A DNA stretch of 24,566 bases, from the IMG/VR virus record IMGVR_UViG_3300031251_000097, positions 1-24,566 of that record; one strand, written 5' to 3'. The position numbers and the translations under genes were made by a program. The notes beneath the pieces are model-generated. The model saw only the letters and a list, made by a program, of their open reading frames with translations, did not search any database and had not been told where the DNA came from. The DNA is from a virus. Each line of letters starts with the position of its first letter. The stretch's first letter is position 1. Of the stretch, positions 1,731 to 24,566 are shown in pieces.

Positions 1731-2099
1731 ATGGCCGACACCACCAACCGCATCGCCGGCGTCTGCTATCTCAGCGTCGACGGCCAGCGCGTCGCCCTGG
1801 TGGGCGAATTCAGCTATCGCCCGGCCAGTCCGACCCGCGAGGCGAAGATGGGGGCCGACGGCTTCCATGGCTACAAAGAGAAGCCGCAGCAGGGCCAGAT
1901 CAAGGCCAAGCTGCGCGACTCCGGCGGCGTCAAGGTCGCCGACCTCGGCGCAATGACCAACGTCACGGTCACCGCCGAGCTGGCCAACGGCAAGACGGTG
2001 ATCGGGCGGAATATGTTCGTCACCGAGGCGCCGTCCGCCGACAGCGAAGAAGCCGAAATCGAGATCACGTGGGAGGGCCCGGATGTCAGCGAGCACTGA
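1731..2099 (+). CDS. tail tube protein (Mu gpM-like)
   Basis: A 122-residue protein matching the Mu-type tail tube family: start 'N..AG...L..DG....L.GE..Y' and a middle 'P..REA..G.DG..GY.E.P..G.I...L'. Hexamers of this protein stack to make the inner tube through which DNA passes. A strong Shine-Dalgarno (GAAGGAGG at 1716-1723) precedes the ATG, fitting the high copy number needed. This is the only gene in the tail block with such a strong separate ribosome site; its neighbours rely on overlaps. The 3' end overlaps the next gene by 17 bases in another frame. Confidence 0.92.
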   Translation: MADTTNRIAGVCYLSVDGQRVALVGEFSYRPASPTREAKMGADGFHGYKEKPQQGQIKAKLRDSGGVKVADLGAMTNVTVTAELANGKTVIGRNMFVTEAPSADSEEAEIEITWEGPDVSEH

Positions 2100-2400
2100 C
2101 GAAGGGGCCGACCAGGACTTCGTCATCGCCTGGCCGGATCCGGAATTCGAGCTCGTCCTGCGCAAGCCGGTCGAGCACGCGGACGAGACTATCACCTCGG
2201 TGATGTTGCGCGAGCCGACCGGCGGGGAGTGGGAAGAGATCTTCGCGCAGCCCGAAAAGCTGCGCCGGCGCTATGCGGTCAGCCGGGTAGGCGGGATCCC
2301 GATGGCCGTCGCCGCCAAGATCGGGATCGGCGACCTAGTCCGGGGCGAGGCCTACCTCAACAGTTTTTTCGAAGTCGGCCTGGTGATCGCCACCAAGTAG
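2083..2400 (+). CDS. tail assembly chaperone, unshifted form (Mu gp41-like, TAC_7 type)
   Basis: A 105-residue protein in the exact slot of Mu gp41, between tube and tape measure. The acidic N-terminus, the 'L..P......ITS..LREPTGGEWE' pattern and the 'Y.VS.V.GIP...A.KIGI.DL' core are typical of tail assembly chaperones (Phage_TAC_7 / E-41-14 family). These proteins coat the tape measure during tail assembly and are absent from finished virions. The start overlaps the tube gene; no strong ribosome site is visible, so coupling is likely. Close to its 3' end lies a TTTTTTC slippery heptamer with a downstream stem-loop, so a fraction of ribosomes should make a longer fusion product. Confidence 0.85.
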   Translation: MSASTDEGADQDFVIAWPDPEFELVLRKPVEHADETITSVMLREPTGGEWEEIFAQPEKLRRRYAVSRVGGIPMAVAAKIGIGDLVRGEAYLNSFFEVGLVIATK

Positions 2401-2510
2401 AGGCCGAGCTCGCTGCGGTTTTCCACTGGGATCCATTCACCATCGGCCGCCTGACCTGGCGGCAGATGCTCGACTGGCACGCCCGCGCCGAAAGGCTGGG
2501 CCTTCTGTGA
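2083..2510 (+). CDS. tail assembly chaperone, -1 frameshift-extended form
   Basis: Ribosomes that slip one base back on T-TTT-TTC (2364-2370) leave the gp41-like frame after residue 96. They continue for 46 codons in the -1 frame to the TGA at 2508-2510, giving a 142-residue product. The extension includes 'AELAAVFHW.P', 'I.RL..R.MLDWH.RAERLG', which resembles the second half (T domain) of other phage chaperone G/GT pairs that contacts the tape measure. No ATG with a ribosome site serves this frame by itself, which supports frameshifting. Conserved chaperone frameshifts are well known in long-tailed phages (lambda G/GT); Mu itself is reported to use a -2 shift, so the -1 geometry here is a difference. 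Inferred from sequence only. Confidence 0.75.
2364..2407 (+). promoter_or_regulatory. programmed -1 frameshift signal: slippery heptamer plus stem-loop
   Basis: The heptamer TTTTTTC (2364-2370) is positioned as X XXY YYZ in the chaperone frame (T TTT TTC). After a 4-base spacer, TCGGCC (2375-2380) can pair with GGCCGA (2402-2407). Inside this, TGGTG (2381-2385) pairs with CACCA (2391-2395) around a 5-base loop, leaving a 6-base bulge that contains the zero-frame stop. This is the classical arrangement of slippery site, short spacer and stimulatory stem. Pairing was found by eye; no folding energy was computed. Confidence 0.75.
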
Positions 2511-2517
2511 GGCGATC

Positions 2518-4203
2518 ATGAAGCCCAGTATCGCCGTCGAAATCACCGCCCGGGACAAGACCGAGGCGGGCCGGAAATCGGCGGAGAAGGGCTTCGGCGC
2601 CTTCGCGAAGAAGACCTCCGACCAGGCCAAGGTTTCCGGGATCGGGAAACTCGGCCAGCAGATCGAGAGCCTGACCAAGCTCAAGGGCGCGAGCTTCGGG
2701 TTCGAGAACGCGGGCCGGAGCCTTTCGCTGATCGGCAAGACCTCGGGTGAAGTCGCCAGCGGTTTCGGATCGGCGACCACCAAGGTGGTGGGCTTCGGCT
2801 CCGCGGCCGAGAGCGTGCTCGGATCGGTCGCCGAGGCGGCGGGAACCGCCGTCGGCGTCATTGGCGGCTTGGCCACGGCTATCATCGGAGCCGGCATCGC
2901 GACCGCCGCTCTCGGCGACAAATGGTCGAAGACAGGCGCTGAGATCGGGAGGACCGCCAAGGACCTCGGCATGTCGGTTCAGGATCTGCAGGCCGCGCGA
3001 GCTGCGTCGGAGCGGTTTGGCGTCTCGACGGACGCGACGACCTCAAGCCTGGACGCGCTGGGTTCGACTCTTAGGTCCGCTCAAATCGGCGGCAACAATC
3101 TCGCTCTTGGGACCCTGACGCAGCTCGGAATCAAACTGAAGCAGACGAAGGACGGGGCGACCGACGTCAACCAGGCGATGCTCGACATTTCCGATGCGAT
3201 CGCTCGCCAGAAGGACCCCCAGGTCCAGAAGCAGCTCGCCCAGGTCTTCGGCATGTCGGCCATGCTCCCGGCGCTGCGCCAGGGATCCGGCGCGCTCAAG
3301 CGTGAGGGAAGTGACTATCTCGCCTCCGGCCGGGCGCTGACACCCGAAGAGGTCGACAAGTCCACTGACGTCTATCGGCGCGTCGTGACGGCCCGCCAGC
3401 ACGTTGGCGCGATCGAGAAGAAGGCGGGTGTCGCCGCTGAGGGTGCGACGAGCGTGGCCGCGGACGGCGCCATCGTCGCGGCCGACAAGGCGGTATCCGT
3501 CATCGGCAGCGCCGGGGAAACGGCGCACTCGGCCGTCACCGCGATTACCGAGGGCGCCCGCAATCTCGCCCATAGCGGCCTCGAGGCCGGCCGCCACCTG
3601 ATGGAGGGCGGCAAGGAAGCCGGCCGGATCATCGGTGAAGAGTTCAGCCGGTTCGCTGGCCGCATTGAGCACCAGGAGAGCCGCGGCCACCAGTTTGACC
3701 GTCATGGCAATCCTCTGACGTCGTCGGCCGGCGCGATCGGCGCCCGCCAGCTGCTGCCGAAGACGGCGGAGCGCGTCGCCCGCCAGAACGGGATCGCCTG
3801 GGATCCAGACAAGTTCGCGCACGATCCTGCCTACAACCGAAAGCTCGGAGATCTCGAGCTCCAGCGCCTGCTCAAGAAATACGACGGTGACGAGGTCCTG
3901 GCCGCAGCGGCCTACAATGCCGGCGAGGGACGCCTGGACAAGCCCTATAAGGACAAGCGGGGCCACATGCAGTCCGGGTGGCTGCAGCGCTTCGGCGACC
4001 CTCGCAAGGGCGAGATCTCCGATGAGGACTTCGCCGCGAAAATTCCTTTCCGGGAAACCCACGACTACGTCGCCAACACCGCCAAGGCGCATGTCGAGAT
4101 CACGCTGCGGAATGCTCCCGTCGGGACGGTCGCCAAGGTGACCGGCGCCCCCGGGGTGAACGTCGATATGAACGTGGCCAGGAGCCTGGACGGGCCCGGA
4201 TGA
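2518..4203 (+). CDS. tape measure protein with C-terminal lytic transglycosylase domain
   Basis: A 561-residue tape measure protein, in the slot after the chaperone. Residues 1-340 are Ala/Gly/Ser/Lys-rich and helical, with a hydrophobic segment at about 104-131 that could cross the inner membrane during ejection. Residues about 376-535 form an SLT-type lytic transglycosylase: E387 in the 'QESRG' motif is the likely catalytic acid, followed by 'GAIGARQLLPKTA' and 'AAAAYNAGEGR' (Y466, N467). The enzyme would cut peptidoglycan as the tail tip penetrates. In this class the tape measure length sets tail length, so a fairly short tail is expected (inference). GAGG at 2509-2512 serves as ribosome site. 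The 3' end overlaps the next gene as ATGA. Confidence 0.9.
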   Translation: MKPSIAVEITARDKTEAGRKSAEKGFGAFAKKTSDQAKVSGIGKLGQQIESLTKLKGASFGFENAGRSLSLIGKTSGEVASGFGSATTKVVGFGSAAESVLGSVAEAAGTAVGVIGGLATAIIGAGIATAALGDKWSKTGAEIGRTAKDLGMSVQDLQAARAASERFGVSTDATTSSLDALGSTLRSAQIGGNNLALGTLTQLGIKLKQTKDGATDVNQAMLDISDAIARQKDPQVQKQLAQVFGMSAMLPALRQGSGALKREGSDYLASGRALTPEEVDKSTDVYRRVVTARQHVGAIEKKAGVAAEGATSVAADGAIVAADKAVSVIGSAGETAHSAVTAITEGARNLAHSGLEAGRHLMEGGKEAGRIIGEEFSRFAGRIEHQESRGHQFDRHGNPLTSSAGAIGARQLLPKTAERVARQNGIAWDPDKFAHDPAYNRKLGDLELQRLLKKYDGDEVLAAAAYNAGEGRLDKPYKDKRGHMQSGWLQRFGDPRKGEISDEDFAAKIPFRETHDYVANTAKAHVEITLRNAPVGTVAKVTGAPGVNVDMNVARSLDGPG

Positions 4204-5534
4204 CCGACTTCAGCAAATCCCTCCGCAAGGCCTCCTGGCGCGGCGTCCCGTTCGGCCTGGAGGCCGGCAGCGAGACGCTTGGCCGTCGCAAGGTCCGCCA
4301 CGACTATCCCTACCGCGACACCGTCTGGCTCGAGGACCAGGGCAAGTTGCCGCGCGCCTTCCGCCTGCAGGGCTTCCTGGTGGGCAATTCGGCGATCTAT
4401 GGCGGCGGCGACGTCAAGTCCCAGCTCAAGCGACTGGAGAGCGCCGCTGAGGCCAAGGGCGTTGGCGTGCTTGTGCATCCCAGCCGCGGCCACCTGACGG
4501 TCGATCTGATCGACCTGGTGATCTCCGAGCGCTGGGACGAGGGCAACTATTACGAGCTGCAGTTCTCCTTCGTCCAAGGCGGGACCCAGCTGTTCCCGGC
4601 GATCCTCGGCGCCCTCGGCGACCTGGTGGCCAAGGCGGCCGGCCTCGCCGATGCCGCAGGCCTTGGATCCTTCGTTTCGGCAGTGACGGGCCCTCTGCAG
4701 CAGGGCATCGCCGCAGCGACCTCGATGGCGGCGACGGCTCAAGGCTGGATCGACACGGCCACGAGCCTCGCCCGGGACGCCACCAGCCTCTATGGCACTG
4801 TGAGCCAGCTGGGCGGCGCCGACTTCGGGCGGTTCTTCAACGGGCGCAACGCCGGCTTCCTGGACGGCCTGACGAGCGTCTATTCGGGGGCCACGTCGAT
4901 CGGCGGCCTGATCAGCCTCGGGTCCGACCTCCGCGCGGCGGTTTCAACTTCCGGGGCAGGGGTGCTGTCGGCGATCGGCGGCCTCGGGGTCACCACCCAA
5001 GCGACCGACGTCGGCTCCGCCATCCAGGCCCATGTGGCGGCCCTGCAGGCGACCGCAGCGGATCCCGCCGACGGCCTGCGGATCCTCAAGGCGCTGGCCG
5101 AAGGCGGTCCGTCCGGCATGGATCCTTCGACGCCGGCCGGATCGGCGATGAGCGATCTCTACAGGCGCTCGGCGGTGATCGCGATGGCGCGGGTCAGCGC
5201 CACTTATCAGCCTTCCTCCTCGGATGACGCGAACGCCGTTCGCGGCTTGGTCCTTGGGCCGGTGGACGCAGAGATCAACGTCGCCGGCCAGCAGCAGGCC
5301 GACGCGGTCTATTCTGCGCTCCGCGGCCTGCGCCGTACTGTCGTCGATGACCTGGCGGATCGCGGCGGAGCTCTTCCGCAGCTGACCCAGATCCTCTCGG
5401 CCCGGGCGCTGCCGGCGATCGTATTGGCCCAGCGCCAATATGGGGACGCCGATCGCGCGGACGAGCTGGTGACCCAGGCGGATCCGCCACACCCGTGGTT
5501 CATGCCGCAGATCTTCTCCGCCCTGGGGTCCTGA
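4200..5534 (+). CDS. DNA circularisation / baseplate protein N (Mu gpN-like)
   Basis: A 444-residue protein with the DNA_circ_N N-terminal domain at residues about 7-95: 'ASWRGVPF.....ETLGRR...HDYP.RD...LED.G...R.F.LQGFLVG', then 'LKRLE.AAEAKG.G.LVHP..G'. In Mu, gpN binds early in baseplate assembly; the name comes from a proposed role in circularising incoming DNA. The C-terminal two thirds is Ala/Gly-rich and variable, and ends with '..ADELV...D..HPWFMP', typical of the family. It overlaps the tape measure stop (ATGA) and is followed after one base by the gp44-like gene. One copy of a 15-bp palindrome (5229-5243) lies within its coding sequence. Confidence 0.9.
   Translation: MTDFSKSLRKASWRGVPFGLEAGSETLGRRKVRHDYPYRDTVWLEDQGKLPRAFRLQGFLVGNSAIYGGGDVKSQLKRLESAAEAKGVGVLVHPSRGHLTVDLIDLVISERWDEGNYYELQFSFVQGGTQLFPAILGALGDLVAKAAGLADAAGLGSFVSAVTGPLQQGIAAATSMAATAQGWIDTATSLARDATSLYGTVSQLGGADFGRFFNGRNAGFLDGLTSVYSGATSIGGLISLGSDLRAAVSTSGAGVLSAIGGLGVTTQATDVGSAIQAHVAALQATAADPADGLRILKALAEGGPSGMDPSTPAGSAMSDLYRRSAVIAMARVSATYQPSSSDDANAVRGLVLGPVDAEINVAGQQQADAVYSALRGLRRTVVDDLADRGGALPQLTQILSARALPAIVLAQRQYGDADRADELVTQADPPHPWFMPQIFSALGS
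5229..5243. repeat. 15-bp perfect palindrome GCGAACGCCGTTCGC, copy 1 (inside gpN gene)
   Basis: An exact inverted repeat around a single central C, identical to the copy at 11057-11071 and matching the copy at 21146-21159 over 14 bases. This copy lies within a gene, so it is under coding constraint and could be coincidental; its function is unknown. Confidence 0.6.
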
Positions 5535-17471: not shown

Positions 17472-18224
17472 ATGCTGATGATTCTCGCGGCCTTCCTGGC
17501 CACGACCACCCATGCGTGCCCGGCCTTCGCGGCTGAGGGTCTGCTGCCCCAGGCGCCGGCCGCCGTGGTGATCTGCTTTGATGGCTATGCCCTCGGCCAC
17601 TCGGCGGCCGACCGCGAGCCGCTTTGGAGCGCCGAGCACCTGACCGCTGCCGGCGTCGCGACCGCGCTGAAGGCGAAGCGGGCAGGAGACTTCCACCCGG
17701 AGCTGCTGCTGCCGAAGTCCGACCGGGCCGAGCTCTCAGACTACCTCTGCGCCGATCAATTCGACCGCGGCCACATGACTCCGGTCGGCGACTTCGGTGT
17801 GACCAGCGAGGAAAACGACACCTTCACCCTGGCGAACATGGTCCCGCAGTTGGACACGCTGAACGAGGGCCTCTGGGCGGGCCTCGAGGGCGCGGTGCGC
17901 CAGTTGGCCCAGCATGAAGGCGAGCTCTATATCGTCACCGGCCCGGTGTTCGGTTCGAGCCCCGCTAAGCTCAAGGGCCGGGTCACCGTGCCGATCGCCA
18001 CCTTCAAGGCGGTCTGGGATCCGGCGACGCATTTCGCCTCGGCCTATGTCGCCCAGAACGACGCCTCGGGCGCCTACAAGGTGGTGAGCATCTCCACCCT
18101 ACAGGAGGAGATCGGCTTCGATCCGTTCCCGGGCCTGGCGCCGGCCATCAAGGCGCACGTCTCCGACCTGCCGAAGCCGCTGAAGCTGGATAGCGCGCTC
18201 AAGCCCAGGGCGTGCACGAAATGA
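17472..18224 (+). CDS. secreted DNA/RNA non-specific endonuclease (NUC family)
   Basis: A 250-residue protein with a signal peptide (MLMILAAFLATTTHACPAFA, cleaved after residue 20) and a NUC (beta-beta-alpha metal) nuclease core. 'FDRGHMTPVGDF' contains the DRGH motif (D98-H101, H101 the general base). 'TFTLANMVPQ' supplies the metal-binding Asn (N122), followed by 'LYIVTGPVF' and a late 'VPIATFKAVWD'. Such enzymes degrade DNA and RNA outside the cytoplasm. AAGGAA at 17458-17463 is the ribosome site; the gene directly follows the endolysin. Its product could clear host DNA released at lysis or destroy incoming DNA in the periplasm of lysogens; the sequence cannot decide. The stop overlaps the next start (ATGA). 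Confidence 0.88.
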   Translation: MLMILAAFLATTTHACPAFAAEGLLPQAPAAVVICFDGYALGHSAADREPLWSAEHLTAAGVATALKAKRAGDFHPELLLPKSDRAELSDYLCADQFDRGHMTPVGDFGVTSEENDTFTLANMVPQLDTLNEGLWAGLEGAVRQLAQHEGELYIVTGPVFGSSPAKLKGRVTVPIATFKAVWDPATHFASAYVAQNDASGAYKVVSISTLQEEIGFDPFPGLAPAIKAHVSDLPKPLKLDSALKPRACTK

Positions 18225-19977: not shown

Positions 19978-19995
19978 TTACGCTTGCATCATGCG

Positions 19996-20014
19996 TGTAA
20001 GGCAGTACCTTACA
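19996..20014. promoter_or_regulatory. operator 2, 19-bp palindrome overlapping the higB promoter
   Basis: TGTAAGGCA-G-TACCTTACA, an inverted repeat with one mismatched pair, ends 3 bases before the higB start codon. A possible -35 (TTGCAT, 19984-19989) and -10 (TACCTT, 20006-20011) with a 16-base spacer would overlap this site, so binding would block transcription. With that -10 the mRNA would be nearly leaderless. The promoter elements are tentative. Confidence 0.7.
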
Positions 20015-20017
20015 TTC

Positions 20018-20296
20018 ATGATCAAGAGCTTCAAAAACAAAGGCCTCCGCCTCTTCTGGGAAACCGGAAGCGCCCGTCGCCTCGCCGTCCCGAACACCGA
20101 TCGGGTTCGCCTGATCCTGGTGGCCCTAAACGCCGCGACCGTCCCCGGCGACATGAACGTCCCGGGCTGGCGCTTCCACCCGCTGGGAAAGATGGCGCCG
20201 GGTCGCTATGCTGTTGAGGCGAGCGCCAACTACCGCGTGACCTTCGCTTTCGAGGCCACAAACGCGGTCGATGTCGACCTGGAGGATTACCACTGA
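20018..20296 (+). CDS. higB: HigB-type mRNA interferase toxin
   Basis: A 92-residue RelE/HigB-superfamily toxin that would cut mRNA on the ribosome. 'MIKSFKNKGLRLFWETG' is the standard HigB start, which fixes the ATG at 20018 although the frame is open 27 bases further up into the operator. Other family motifs: 'RL.LVALNAATVPGDMNVPGWRFHPLGK' (about residues 31-58) and 'YRVTFAFE...AVDVDLEDYH' at the end. No ribosome site is visible, in keeping with a leaderless or weakly translated message. The stop overlaps the antitoxin start (TGATG). Toxin-first order is normal for HigBA. Confidence 0.92.
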   Translation: MIKSFKNKGLRLFWETGSARRLAVPNTDRVRLILVALNAATVPGDMNVPGWRFHPLGKMAPGRYAVEASANYRVTFAFEATNAVDVDLEDYH

Positions 20297-20631
20297 TGGG
20301 CAAGCCCGAAGACACCGCCCCGCTGAAGCGGGGCCTCGCCCCCGTCCACCCGGGCGAGATGTTGCGGCTCGAGGTCGTCCCGGCCCTGAAAGCCACGGGG
20401 GTCACCAAGGTGGCGCTCGCGGCCGCGCTGGGGATCAGTCGGCGGACGCTCGAGGACATCCTGCTCGAGAAGCAGAACGTCACCCCGGAGATGGCTCTGC
20501 GGCTCGGCAAGGCGCTGGGCAATGGCCCGAACCTCTGGCTCAACCTGCAGCAGGACTGGGACCTGGCGCGGGCCCGTGAGCGGCTCGGTGCGGCCCTGGA
20601 CGAGATTGCGACCTTCCAGGTGGCGAGCTAG
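20296..20631 (+). CDS. higA: HigA-type antitoxin, XRE-family DNA-binding
   Basis: A 111-residue antitoxin with the HigA signature 'HPGEMLRLEVVPALKATGVTK' followed by a helix-turn-helix at about residues 36-60 ('KVALAAALGISRRTLEDILLEKQNVTPEMALRLGKALG') and 'N.WLNLQQDWDLARARE'. It neutralises HigB and binds its own promoter; the two palindromes at 19959-20014 are the likely sites. The gene is coupled to higB through TGATG. In a prophage such a pair may stabilise lysogeny or act in abortive infection. Confidence 0.93.
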   Translation: MGKPEDTAPLKRGLAPVHPGEMLRLEVVPALKATGVTKVALAAALGISRRTLEDILLEKQNVTPEMALRLGKALGNGPNLWLNLQQDWDLARARERLGAALDEIATFQVAS

Positions 20632-22658: not shown

Positions 22659-24347
22659 TTAGGCGGCGATTGTGATCAGCAGGCCGTTAGGACCGTGCTG
22701 GCTGCGCGTCCCCGCACCCATCTTGGTCCTAACAGCGATGTTAGGCGCATCAGCCCCCGCAAGGGGGCTTTTCGCGTTTTGGAGTACTGGCGCGAGATCG
22801 GTCTGGATCTCCAGGCGGTAGGCTCCACGCGCCTCGAGCGGGATCACGTGCACGCCCCGCACCAGGGCCCGAAAGGCCTCACGGGCGGCCTGGCGCTCAG
22901 CGGCGCCATCCTCGGCCACCAGGTGGGCCTGCAGATCCTCGACAAGCTTGCGCCAGCGCGCCGGAGCGCCCGGGTGCAAGGTCACCACGTCGCCGGCGTC
23001 GTCGGCCGAGGCCAGCAGCTGCTCGAGCTCCGCGCGCCGCGCCTCGAGGGTGCCCAGTCGATCGCGCACCGAGGCGCCCGAAAGCACGCCATCCGCGACC
23101 TGGTCGACGAGTCGATCGGCGCGGCGCTTCACCTCTCCCAGCTCACGCTCCCAGGCCGTCCGCTTCCCGCGGGCGGCCTTTTGCGTTTCAGCCTTGGCCG
23201 CGTGGTACTCGCGCATGGCCAGCTCGATCACCTCGGGGTGCAGCAGGTCGCGCTGGATCGCCTCGAGGACTCGAGCCTCGACGTCCACCGACTTGGCGCC
23301 CCGGCCATTGGCGCAGCCGGCCGGGCCGCGCTCGCGCCTGGTGCTGCACAGGAAGCGCCGATCGGGCCCGGCCAGCGTCATCGGACCGCCGCACTCGCCG
23401 CACCTCACGAGGCCTGACAGGAGGCCACGGGGCCGCGCAGCAGCGCCCGGACGGCCGCCCTCGGCCACCTGGCGCTGGGCCAGGGCGTAGCGGGCTTGCA
23501 CGGCCGCCCAGAGGGCCTCATCGACGATCCTGAGCGCAGGGACGTCCTGGCGCACGATTGTCTCGGCGTCGCCGGCCCGCGCTCGGCGCTTCCCAGTCTT
23601 GCGGTCCTTCATCCAGGCGTGGCGGCCCCAGACGACGACTCCGCGATAGAGCTCGTTGTGCAGGACGCCGTTCCCGCGCTTGGCGTTGCCATTGATGGTC
23701 GAGGCGTTCCACATCCCGCCCGACGGGCCAGGGACGCCAGCGAGGTTCAGGGCGGCGGCGATCGCGCGCGGCGATTCACCGCCGGCGTAGCGGGTGAAGA
23801 TCTCGACCACGTGCTCGGCCTCGAGCGGTTCGATCTCGCGAAGGCCGCGCACCAGGTCGCCGCGGCCGTCCAGCTCGCGCCGAATCCTGTAGCCGTAGGT
23901 TCGGCCGCCTGCATGCCGACCGTCGCGCGCGACGCCATCTAGGCCCCGGCGGGTCTTCCTGGCGAGCTCGCGGAGGAACAGGGCATTCATCGTGCCCTTG
24001 AGGCCGATCGCCAGCTCCTCCACCTCGCCCTCGGCCGGCGTGTGGATCCTGACGCCGGCGGCGCGGAGATCCTCGAATATGTCCCAGGCGTCGCCGCCCG
24101 ATCGGGTGAGGCGGTCAAGGGCCTCGGCGATCACCACGTCGATCGTGCCGGCGGCCGCGGCCGCGAGCAGCGCCTGCAGGCCGGGCCGGTTGGCGGCCGA
24201 TGCGCCGCTGATCGCGGCGTCGGTGAACTCGGCCGAGACTGTGGCGCCGATCCGCTCGGCATGTCGCCGGCAAGCATGCAGCTGGTCGGCGATCGAGGCT
24301 GTCGACTGCAGGTCGCTGGAGAACCGGGCGTAGAGGGCGGCGCGCAT
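22659..24347 (-). CDS. large serine recombinase (probable integrase)
   Basis: A 563-residue recombinase that would integrate and excise the prophage by a serine-linked double-strand exchange. The start at 24347 (MRAALYARFSS) is set by the resolvase fold; the open frame upstream is Pro/Gly-rich shadow. Catalytic residues: S10 in 'YARFSSDLQ', with R79 and R82 in 'EALDRLTR'. The recombinase domain follows ('GRTYGYRI', 'IFTRYAGGESPRAIAAALN', 'HNELYRGVVVWGR'). Next is a zinc ribbon with C316, C319, C334 and C345, then a coiled coil ('RELGEVKRRADRLVDQVADGVL'). Length and layout fit large serine integrases. Start coupled to a 47-residue ORF (TGATG). The probable promoter side is the right edge of the window, where the attachment site may lie, but no att core can be identified from one end. 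Confidence 0.92.
   Translation of the reverse strand: MRAALYARFSSDLQSTASIADQLHACRRHAERIGATVSAEFTDAAISGASAANRPGLQALLAAAAAGTIDVVIAEALDRLTRSGGDAWDIFEDLRAAGVRIHTPAEGEVEELAIGLKGTMNALFLRELARKTRRGLDGVARDGRHAGGRTYGYRIRRELDGRGDLVRGLREIEPLEAEHVVEIFTRYAGGESPRAIAAALNLAGVPGPSGGMWNASTINGNAKRGNGVLHNELYRGVVVWGRHAWMKDRKTGKRRARAGDAETIVRQDVPALRIVDEALWAAVQARYALAQRQVAEGGRPGAAARPRGLLSGLVRCGECGGPMTLAGPDRRFLCSTRRERGPAGCANGRGAKSVDVEARVLEAIQRDLLHPEVIELAMREYHAAKAETQKAARGKRTAWERELGEVKRRADRLVDQVADGVLSGASVRDRLGTLEARRAELEQLLASADDAGDVVTLHPGAPARWRKLVEDLQAHLVAEDGAAERQAAREAFRALVRGVHVIPLEARGAYRLEIQTDLAPVLQNAKSPLAGADAPNIAVRTKMGAGTRSQHGPNGLLITIAA
22752..22772 (+). terminator. terminator-like hairpin on the plus strand, inside the integrase 3' end
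   Basis: AGCCCCC (22752-22758), loop GCAA (a GNRA-type tetraloop) and GGGGGCT (22763-22769) form a perfect 7-bp stem, followed by TTT and, after CGCG, TTTT. It is oriented to stop rightward transcription, while the gene it lies in is leftward. It may block antisense read-through into the integrase, or be coincidental. Confidence 0.5.
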
Positions 24348-24490
24348 CAGGGACGTGATTCCGTCTGGGCAGGCTGGGCGCGATCCTCTTCCGCCGCCAT
24401 GAGGCGTGCAAGGGCCCGCGCGAGCGCCAGCACCGCCGGAGAGGGCGGGGGCGCTTGTGACGGAACGGCCTGGCTCGCGCGGGTGCGCAT
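24347..24490 (-). CDS. 47-residue protein coupled to the serine recombinase
   Basis: A short leftward ORF: ATG at 24490, TGA at 24349-24347, sharing one base with the recombinase ATG (TGATG). The product starts 'MRTRASQAVPSQAPPPSP' and then has the amphipathic helix 'AVLALARALARLMAAEEDRA', ending 'QTESRP'. From memory, short genes with an 'ALARALAR' helix precede serine recombinases in other alphaproteobacteria; this should be checked. Coupling and the ordered Pro-rich/helix composition support a real gene. It might regulate or assist the recombinase; a role as excision factor is only a guess. No strong ribosome site is seen. Confidence 0.6.
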   Translation of the reverse strand: MRTRASQAVPSQAPPPSPAVLALARALARLMAAEEDRAQPAQTESRP

Positions 24491-24566
24491 GATCCGAACT
24501 GCTGCTGAAATTCAGGAAAGGGGGAGGGGTCGGGCGCGCGGCGAATCCCAACGAAGTGGAGAGCCG
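24491..24566. other. noncoding edge upstream of the integrase operon
   Basis: No gene is supported in the last 76 bases. The segment should hold the promoter of the leftward operon and perhaps part of the attachment site, which for serine integrases usually lies just upstream of the integrase gene. No convincing -35/-10 pair or att inverted repeat could be picked out, and the left prophage end is outside the window. Confidence 0.4.

Follow-up and report, generated by a model that had tools for sequence, protein, structure and literature searches.

The tail assembly chaperone gene of this virus is predicted, at a probability of about 0.93, to be expressed by programmed -1 ribosomal frameshifting of the P2 E / E+E' kind. 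The gene is located in the window analyzed here, a stretch of 24,566 nt from an IMG/VR virus record that contains a contractile-tail block, in which sheath, tube, chaperone and tape measure genes are followed by baseplate genes. The plus strand encodes the tail sheath (203–1699; Phage_sheath_1, 62.9 bits; phrog_165, 560 bits), the tail tube (1731–2099; Tail_tube, 123.9 bits) and the tape measure protein (2518–4203; phrog_2276 tape measure, E 1.3e-25), the latter with an SLT domain. The zero-frame chaperone product of 105 residues (2083–2400, plus strand) is encoded between the tube and tape measure genes and matches phrog_166 (E 4.7e-6) and Phage_TAC_7 (E 1.2e-4; 22.4 bits, under the Pfam gathering cutoff of 25). 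Further along, the window encodes a DNA/RNA non-specific endonuclease of the late block (17472–18224; Endonuclease_NS, 123.8 bits), a HigB-like toxin (33.7 bits) with an antitoxin-like helix-turn-helix gene after it (19991–20631), and, on the minus strand, a large serine recombinase with Resolvase, Recombinase and Zn ribbon domains (22659–24551), which is probably the integrase.

The slippery heptamer T TTT TTC occupies positions 2364–2370 of the plus strand. Counting chaperone codons from 2083 places TTT at 2365 and TTC at 2368, so that T2364 TTT TTC forms an in-phase X XXY YYZ site, as the original prediction had stated. U_UU.U_UU.C was an efficient, shift-prone heptamer in E. coli tests, according to a passage of PMC4066793. 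Counting both strands, the 24,566 bases contain a single TTTTTT, against 0.80 occurrences expected from shuffles, and this run lies exactly at the site position of the relatives described below. Among the 3,022 in-phase positions of ten tail-block reading frames, T TTT TTC is the sole T-type canonical heptamer, the remaining five canonical heptamers being of the GGGCCC/CCCGGG kind; within the chaperone/GpE overlap it is the only canonical heptamer.

The -1 frame contains no stop codon from 2097 to 2508 and ends with TGA at 2508–2510, just upstream of the tape measure gene. The -1 extension (2370–2510, plus strand; 46 codons and TGA) carries the GpE domain, recognized by Phage_P2_GpE (23.7 bits, cutoff 23) and by a GpE HMM built without the window (E 1.2e-7). 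The predicted products thus comprise 105 residues in the zero frame and 142 residues in the fusion. Site, phase, frames and domains bear out what had been proposed from the first inspection of this DNA, namely a -1 signal in the tail chaperone, a downstream frame open for 46 codons up to the tape measure gene and a 142-residue fusion.

Most ribosomes would read 2083–2400 and stop at TAG 2398–2400, producing the 105-residue chaperone, and a minority would slip back one base on TTTTTTC while TTT and TTC, both encoding Phe, occupy the P and A sites. The slipped ribosomes would read past the zero-frame TAG and add the 46-residue GpE domain, giving the 142-residue fusion. Slipping at TTTTTTC is a prediction from the nucleotide sequence; for a chaperone cluster, a passage of PMC3711429 gives frameshifting of 6–7% in a published test. 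As in lambda G/GT, the short form would probably coat or bind the tape measure and the long form recruit tube subunits, roles assigned to the lambda-type proteins in a passage of the review PMC5009743. The hairpin located 4 nt downstream of the heptamer may raise the slip rate.

Related loci were collected by their sheath proteins from 80 genome contigs, 80 viral contigs, three contigs of a first scan and 12 named phages. Counting the window and its copy L001, 176 sequences contained a sheath, 173 of them a tube and 166 a chaperone found by the model; removal of exact duplicates left 155 distinct chaperone regions. Dropped were the window's own copy (L001), a locus with the sheath cut short (L004), three loci in which no tube was found (L101, L019, and L147), seven in which the model found no chaperone (L104, L032, L031, L118, L013, which is Mu, L044, and L132) and two lacking a slippery site (L137 and L007). 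The later finds L177–L187 do not enter these counts, L177–L181 having been inspected by eye only. In L019 and L101, the Mu-like sheath is followed past about position 4982 by other genes, with no tube or chaperone. The GpE model was built from ten named phages with the window excluded, and leaving these ten out gave 143 test loci including the window. GpE was found at E<0.01 in the -1 frame of 140 of the 143, and in none of them in the zero or the third frame. A second set, fetched via the baseplate hub protein, contained a chaperone in 64 of 80 cases, reduced by 12 duplicates to 52 loci, some of whose contigs are common to the first set; all 52 carry GpE in the -1 frame and none in the other two frames.

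A slippery site lies inside the overlap in 153 of the 155 regions. T-type canonical heptamers are present in 113 (43 GGGTTTT, the commonest single heptamer, and 70 TTTTTTN), GGGAAAN is present in nine, and another 31 have no more than a T TTT tetramer (CGGTTTT in 26), which is the weakest site call because an in-phase T TTT can arise by chance; two regions (L137 and L007) have no site. In eight loci (L022, L053, L122, L162, L165, L174, L073, and L037), GGGAAAG or GGGAAAA occupies the last zero-frame codons directly 5' of the stop, with no T run. Tandem TAC_7 copies also occur: chaperone ORFs of 180–216 residues are found in L014, L015, L111 and many Burkholderiales and are followed by one -1 GpE; Pfam recognizes two stretches in L111, and the model finds two domains in 38 of the 166 chaperone loci.

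Transcriptional slippage on long A/T runs is known, and RNA polymerase slipping on the T6 run of the window would yield some mRNAs with an altered number of U. A passage of PMC4066793 deals with such AAAAAAA/UUUUUUU runs; the run of the window is present but comprises just six T, bordered by G and C. The T run is shorter in many relatives that likewise carry GpE in the -1 frame (43/155 GGGTTTT, 31/155 tetramer), and 7/155 have GGGAAAG. Conservation thus does not extend to a long T run itself, which makes this explanation very unlikely. Alternatively, GpE could be a separate gene with its own start, its overlap with the chaperone being incidental, and a separate GpE gene is indeed annotated in Dobby and Alfacinha3. 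The only ATG, GTG or TTG codons in the -1 frame of the window are, however, GTG 2229, which lies 5' of the slippery site and lacks a spaced Shine-Dalgarno sequence, and ATG 2466, which lies within the GpE domain; because no such codon occurs between them, the full GpE could not be started alone. The slippery site in the overlap of 153 of 155 regions, 31 of them of the weak tetramer class, also speaks against independent initiation, which is extremely improbable. That the two frames reflect a pseudogene or a sequencing error would be compatible with the single contig and the lack of a close DNA relative, but the frames are split likewise, in an identical direction, in 140/143 and 52/52 loci, which leaves a broken gene with a practically negligible probability. 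All three explanations were rejected, and programmed -1 frameshifting remains the preferred reading.

The candidate stimulatory stem of the window follows the heptamer after an unpaired spacer of four bases (2371–2374). It consists of a 6-bp lower stem (arms 2375–2380 and 2402–2407) and a 5-bp upper stem (arms 2381–2385 and 2391–2395) closing a loop at 2386–2390, and the zero-frame stop TAG (2398–2400) is located within the bulge 2396–2401, all on the plus strand. This architecture matches the earlier description base for base, and RNA folding, suggested there as a check, gave with RNAfold the same hairpin as the best structure, except that T2381 pairs with A2401 rather than A2395. The stem 2371–2407 has a z of -2.65, with 20 of 1000 shuffles folding as well; the corresponding numbers are 13/1000 for 2375–2407 and 127/1000 for the longer 50-nt stretch 2371–2420. 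The record is GC-rich, and 2,877 of its 24,529 stretches of 37 nt fold at least as well as the stem. The advantage of the stem over shuffles is modest, and folds of its strength are not uncommon in the record. In the 50-nt post-site frame used below for clusters of relatives, the z of the window is -1.14.

The nearest relative, L093, is a proteobacterial MAG with a sheath 68% and a chaperone 41% identical to those of the window. Its site sequence is GGGTTTTTTC. A different 6-bp stem is found in L093 at nearly equal distance from the site. The conservation expected of heptamer and stem among relatives is borne out in part: L093 retains the heptamer and most relatives retain its class, but the stem sequence of the window is not kept. 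No set of close relatives allowing analysis of stem covariation was found. Searches for chaperone relatives gave none confirmed in one case and one weak match in another, further relatives of the window/L093 sheath pair were not confirmed, a search with the tube pair across 398 genomes from a single order returned only L093's own genome, and a DNA-level search of phages and plasmids revealed no close relative, with at most 8% of the query covered. An Rfam search of the window, L198 (P2), L093 and L012 gave no match.

At the family level, folding was evaluated for 105 clusters (80% identity) as z against dinucleotide shuffles. The 50 nt directly 3' of the site have a mean z of -1.11 (se 0.14), compared to -0.06 to -0.29 at offsets -105 to -30, +15 and +30 and smaller peaks at -150/-135 (-0.55, -0.62) and +45/+60 (-0.72, -0.79). 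The site window is stronger than the mean of the other windows (Wilcoxon p 6e-8) and than each other peak (p 0.001 to 0.04), although these p values, like those below, are optimistic because the clusters are related. Pairing probability rises after a less-paired spacer to 0.73–0.83 at nucleotides 9–11 past the site, against 0.54–0.55 in shuffles, and the stem of the window covers these positions. In 12 further clusters from the hub-protein set, the z at the site is -0.90 (se 0.44), and no other offset gives a lower value. P2-like phages served as the control: a chaperone was found in 79 of 85, with 75 distinct regions having a T-type site and three without, and the resulting 41 clusters (T6G, T6C, T7) have a z of -0.15 (se 0.12) at the same place (Mann-Whitney p 5e-5 against the 105 clusters).

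The fold differs by site class, with mean z of -1.85 for tetramers (n 13), -2.09 for GGGAAA (n 6), -0.95 for T6 (n 58) and -0.88 for GGGTTTT (n 28). It is stronger at weak sites (Mann-Whitney p 0.013 with tetramers only, 0.0035 with GGGAAA added). Stronger folds at tetramer sites fit the E. coli tests reported in a passage of PMC4066793, where U_UU.Y tetramers without a stimulator gave almost no shifting.

The -1 shift could also be driven by the heptamer acting alone, the downstream hairpin taking no part, as reported for P2: a passage of PMC3091744 describes P2, KS5, KS14, and KL3 as having no hairpin within 60 bp. The z of -0.15 in the 41 P2-like clusters and the modest stem of the window itself are consistent with this possibility, whereas the family-level fold just past the site, seen again in the 12 further clusters (-0.90, se 0.44), argues against it; a sole role of the heptamer is a serious possibility but falls somewhat short of an even chance. 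Tentatively, and with the balance of probability rather against it, the slippery site and the hairpin may form a tunable pair in SfV/BZS1-like contractile tails, unlike P2-like ones, in which a hairpin is kept and is stronger at weak (tetramer, GGGAAA) sites; the stem of the window would be one instance. The family-level trend is modest and appears to be the only fresh element here; the literature searches listed no recognized report of hairpins common to tails of this group.

The P2-like chaperones (41 clusters; P2 itself is L198, 728–800) have a strong fold of their own 45–95 nt past the T6 site, beyond the zero-frame stop, with a mean z of -2.10 (se 0.25). Against synonymous-codon randomization, its z is -1.87, with 17 of 37 at p<=0.05. 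The register of this fold varies, and a search for a fixed-register hairpin near the FHW codons of these phages found none.

The original prediction regarded a -1 signal in an otherwise Mu-like tail as a noteworthy variant. This does not hold, as 35 of the 43 labeled rows of a quick sheath tree (45 rows; the labeled rows exclude L019, where the chaperone was not found) are -1 and eight are -2/+1. The Mu branch comprises all -2 rows and, in addition, Bordetella PBb001 and Chromohalobacter YPCBV-1, which are -1; the tree needs two frame changes, or one without YPCBV-1. The window groups with L093 (SH-aLRT 99) among the -1 rows, outside the Mu branch, and its sheath shares 47.6% identity with the sheath of Serratia phage BZS1 and 37.3% with the Mu sheath. 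The -1 shift is the normal condition in this tail, and -2 marks only the Mu sub-branch; therefore, the contrast with Mu sets the window against a side branch. The frame of the reading from chaperone to tape measure is -2/+1 in Mu, D108, Pmp9, B23, MuM16-2, martha and Vibrio 1.028, and GGGGGCGA is common to all seven; Kp4866-3, judged from translations, has the -2/+1 relation too. A passage of the review PMC5009743 gives the shift of Mu as -2 rather than +1. YPCBV-1 (L191, 4384–4916), although a member of the Mu branch, has a T6G site with a -1 shift and is sister by sheath to B23, which has a -2 site; in YPCBV-1 either the shift direction was switched or the segment exchanged.

GpE of the window lies in the -1 frame only and not in the -2/+1 frame, and in place of GGGGGCGA the window has CGGGGCGAG at 2341–2349, one G short. 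These positions were considered as a Mu-type site for their likeness to GGGGGCGAG of Mu and rejected: the G is missing, the likeness is absent from L093, and a -2 shift there would miss the GpE frame.

Among known systems, the window resembles P2 E / E+E' in its position 5' of the tape measure gene, the combination of Phage_TAC_7 and Phage_P2_GpE, the -1 shift at a T6 heptamer and the 142-residue fusion; P2 products of 91 and 142 aa and a T6G site are given in a passage of PMC3091744 and in record NC_001895. The differences are T6C in the window and T6G in P2, and a hairpin right after the site in the window, reported absent in P2. This arrangement is known from P2 and many tailed phages, as indicated by passages of PMC3931495, PMC3091744, and PMC10885494, where Xu 2004 and Christie 2002 are cited. 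The nearest named phages by sheath (39–48% identity to the window) are SfV, ST64B, BZS1, and phiNP, with a Mu-like sheath and a -1 chaperone; they share the -1 GpE frame following a T6 or T7 run and differ in their divergent sequence. Mu gp41 has an equal gene position, with Phage_TAC_7 (24.7 bits) and Gp41_Mu matches, but its downstream frame is -2/+1 at GGGGGCGA and its extension has no Pfam match. The heptamer of lambda G/GT is G GGA AAG, and its protein families differ from those of the window. Its likeness to the window is a low-level -1 shift that yields a chaperone and a fusion for tail assembly (passage of PMC5009743). In Burkholderia phage PhiE067, a passage of PMC7266877 predicts a chaperone frameshift for gp16/gp16.1 at GGGTTTT; the likeness is one of site prediction, and the heptamer of the window differs. 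The authors of KS10 found no frameshift, according to a passage of PMC2628397. Overall, the chaperone gene of the window offers a clear though unexceptional case of a signal already known from numerous tailed phages.

These results can guide annotation, since the GpE half of the chaperone is easily missed: of 13 -1 records retrieved with annotation, not one presents the fusion as a joined gene. For the tail family, the rule is the -1 shift, with the -2 shift of Mu confined to one sub-branch. If the hairpin trend is true, the tail-chaperone genes would form a natural series in which the strength of the slippery site is traded against the strength of the hairpin.
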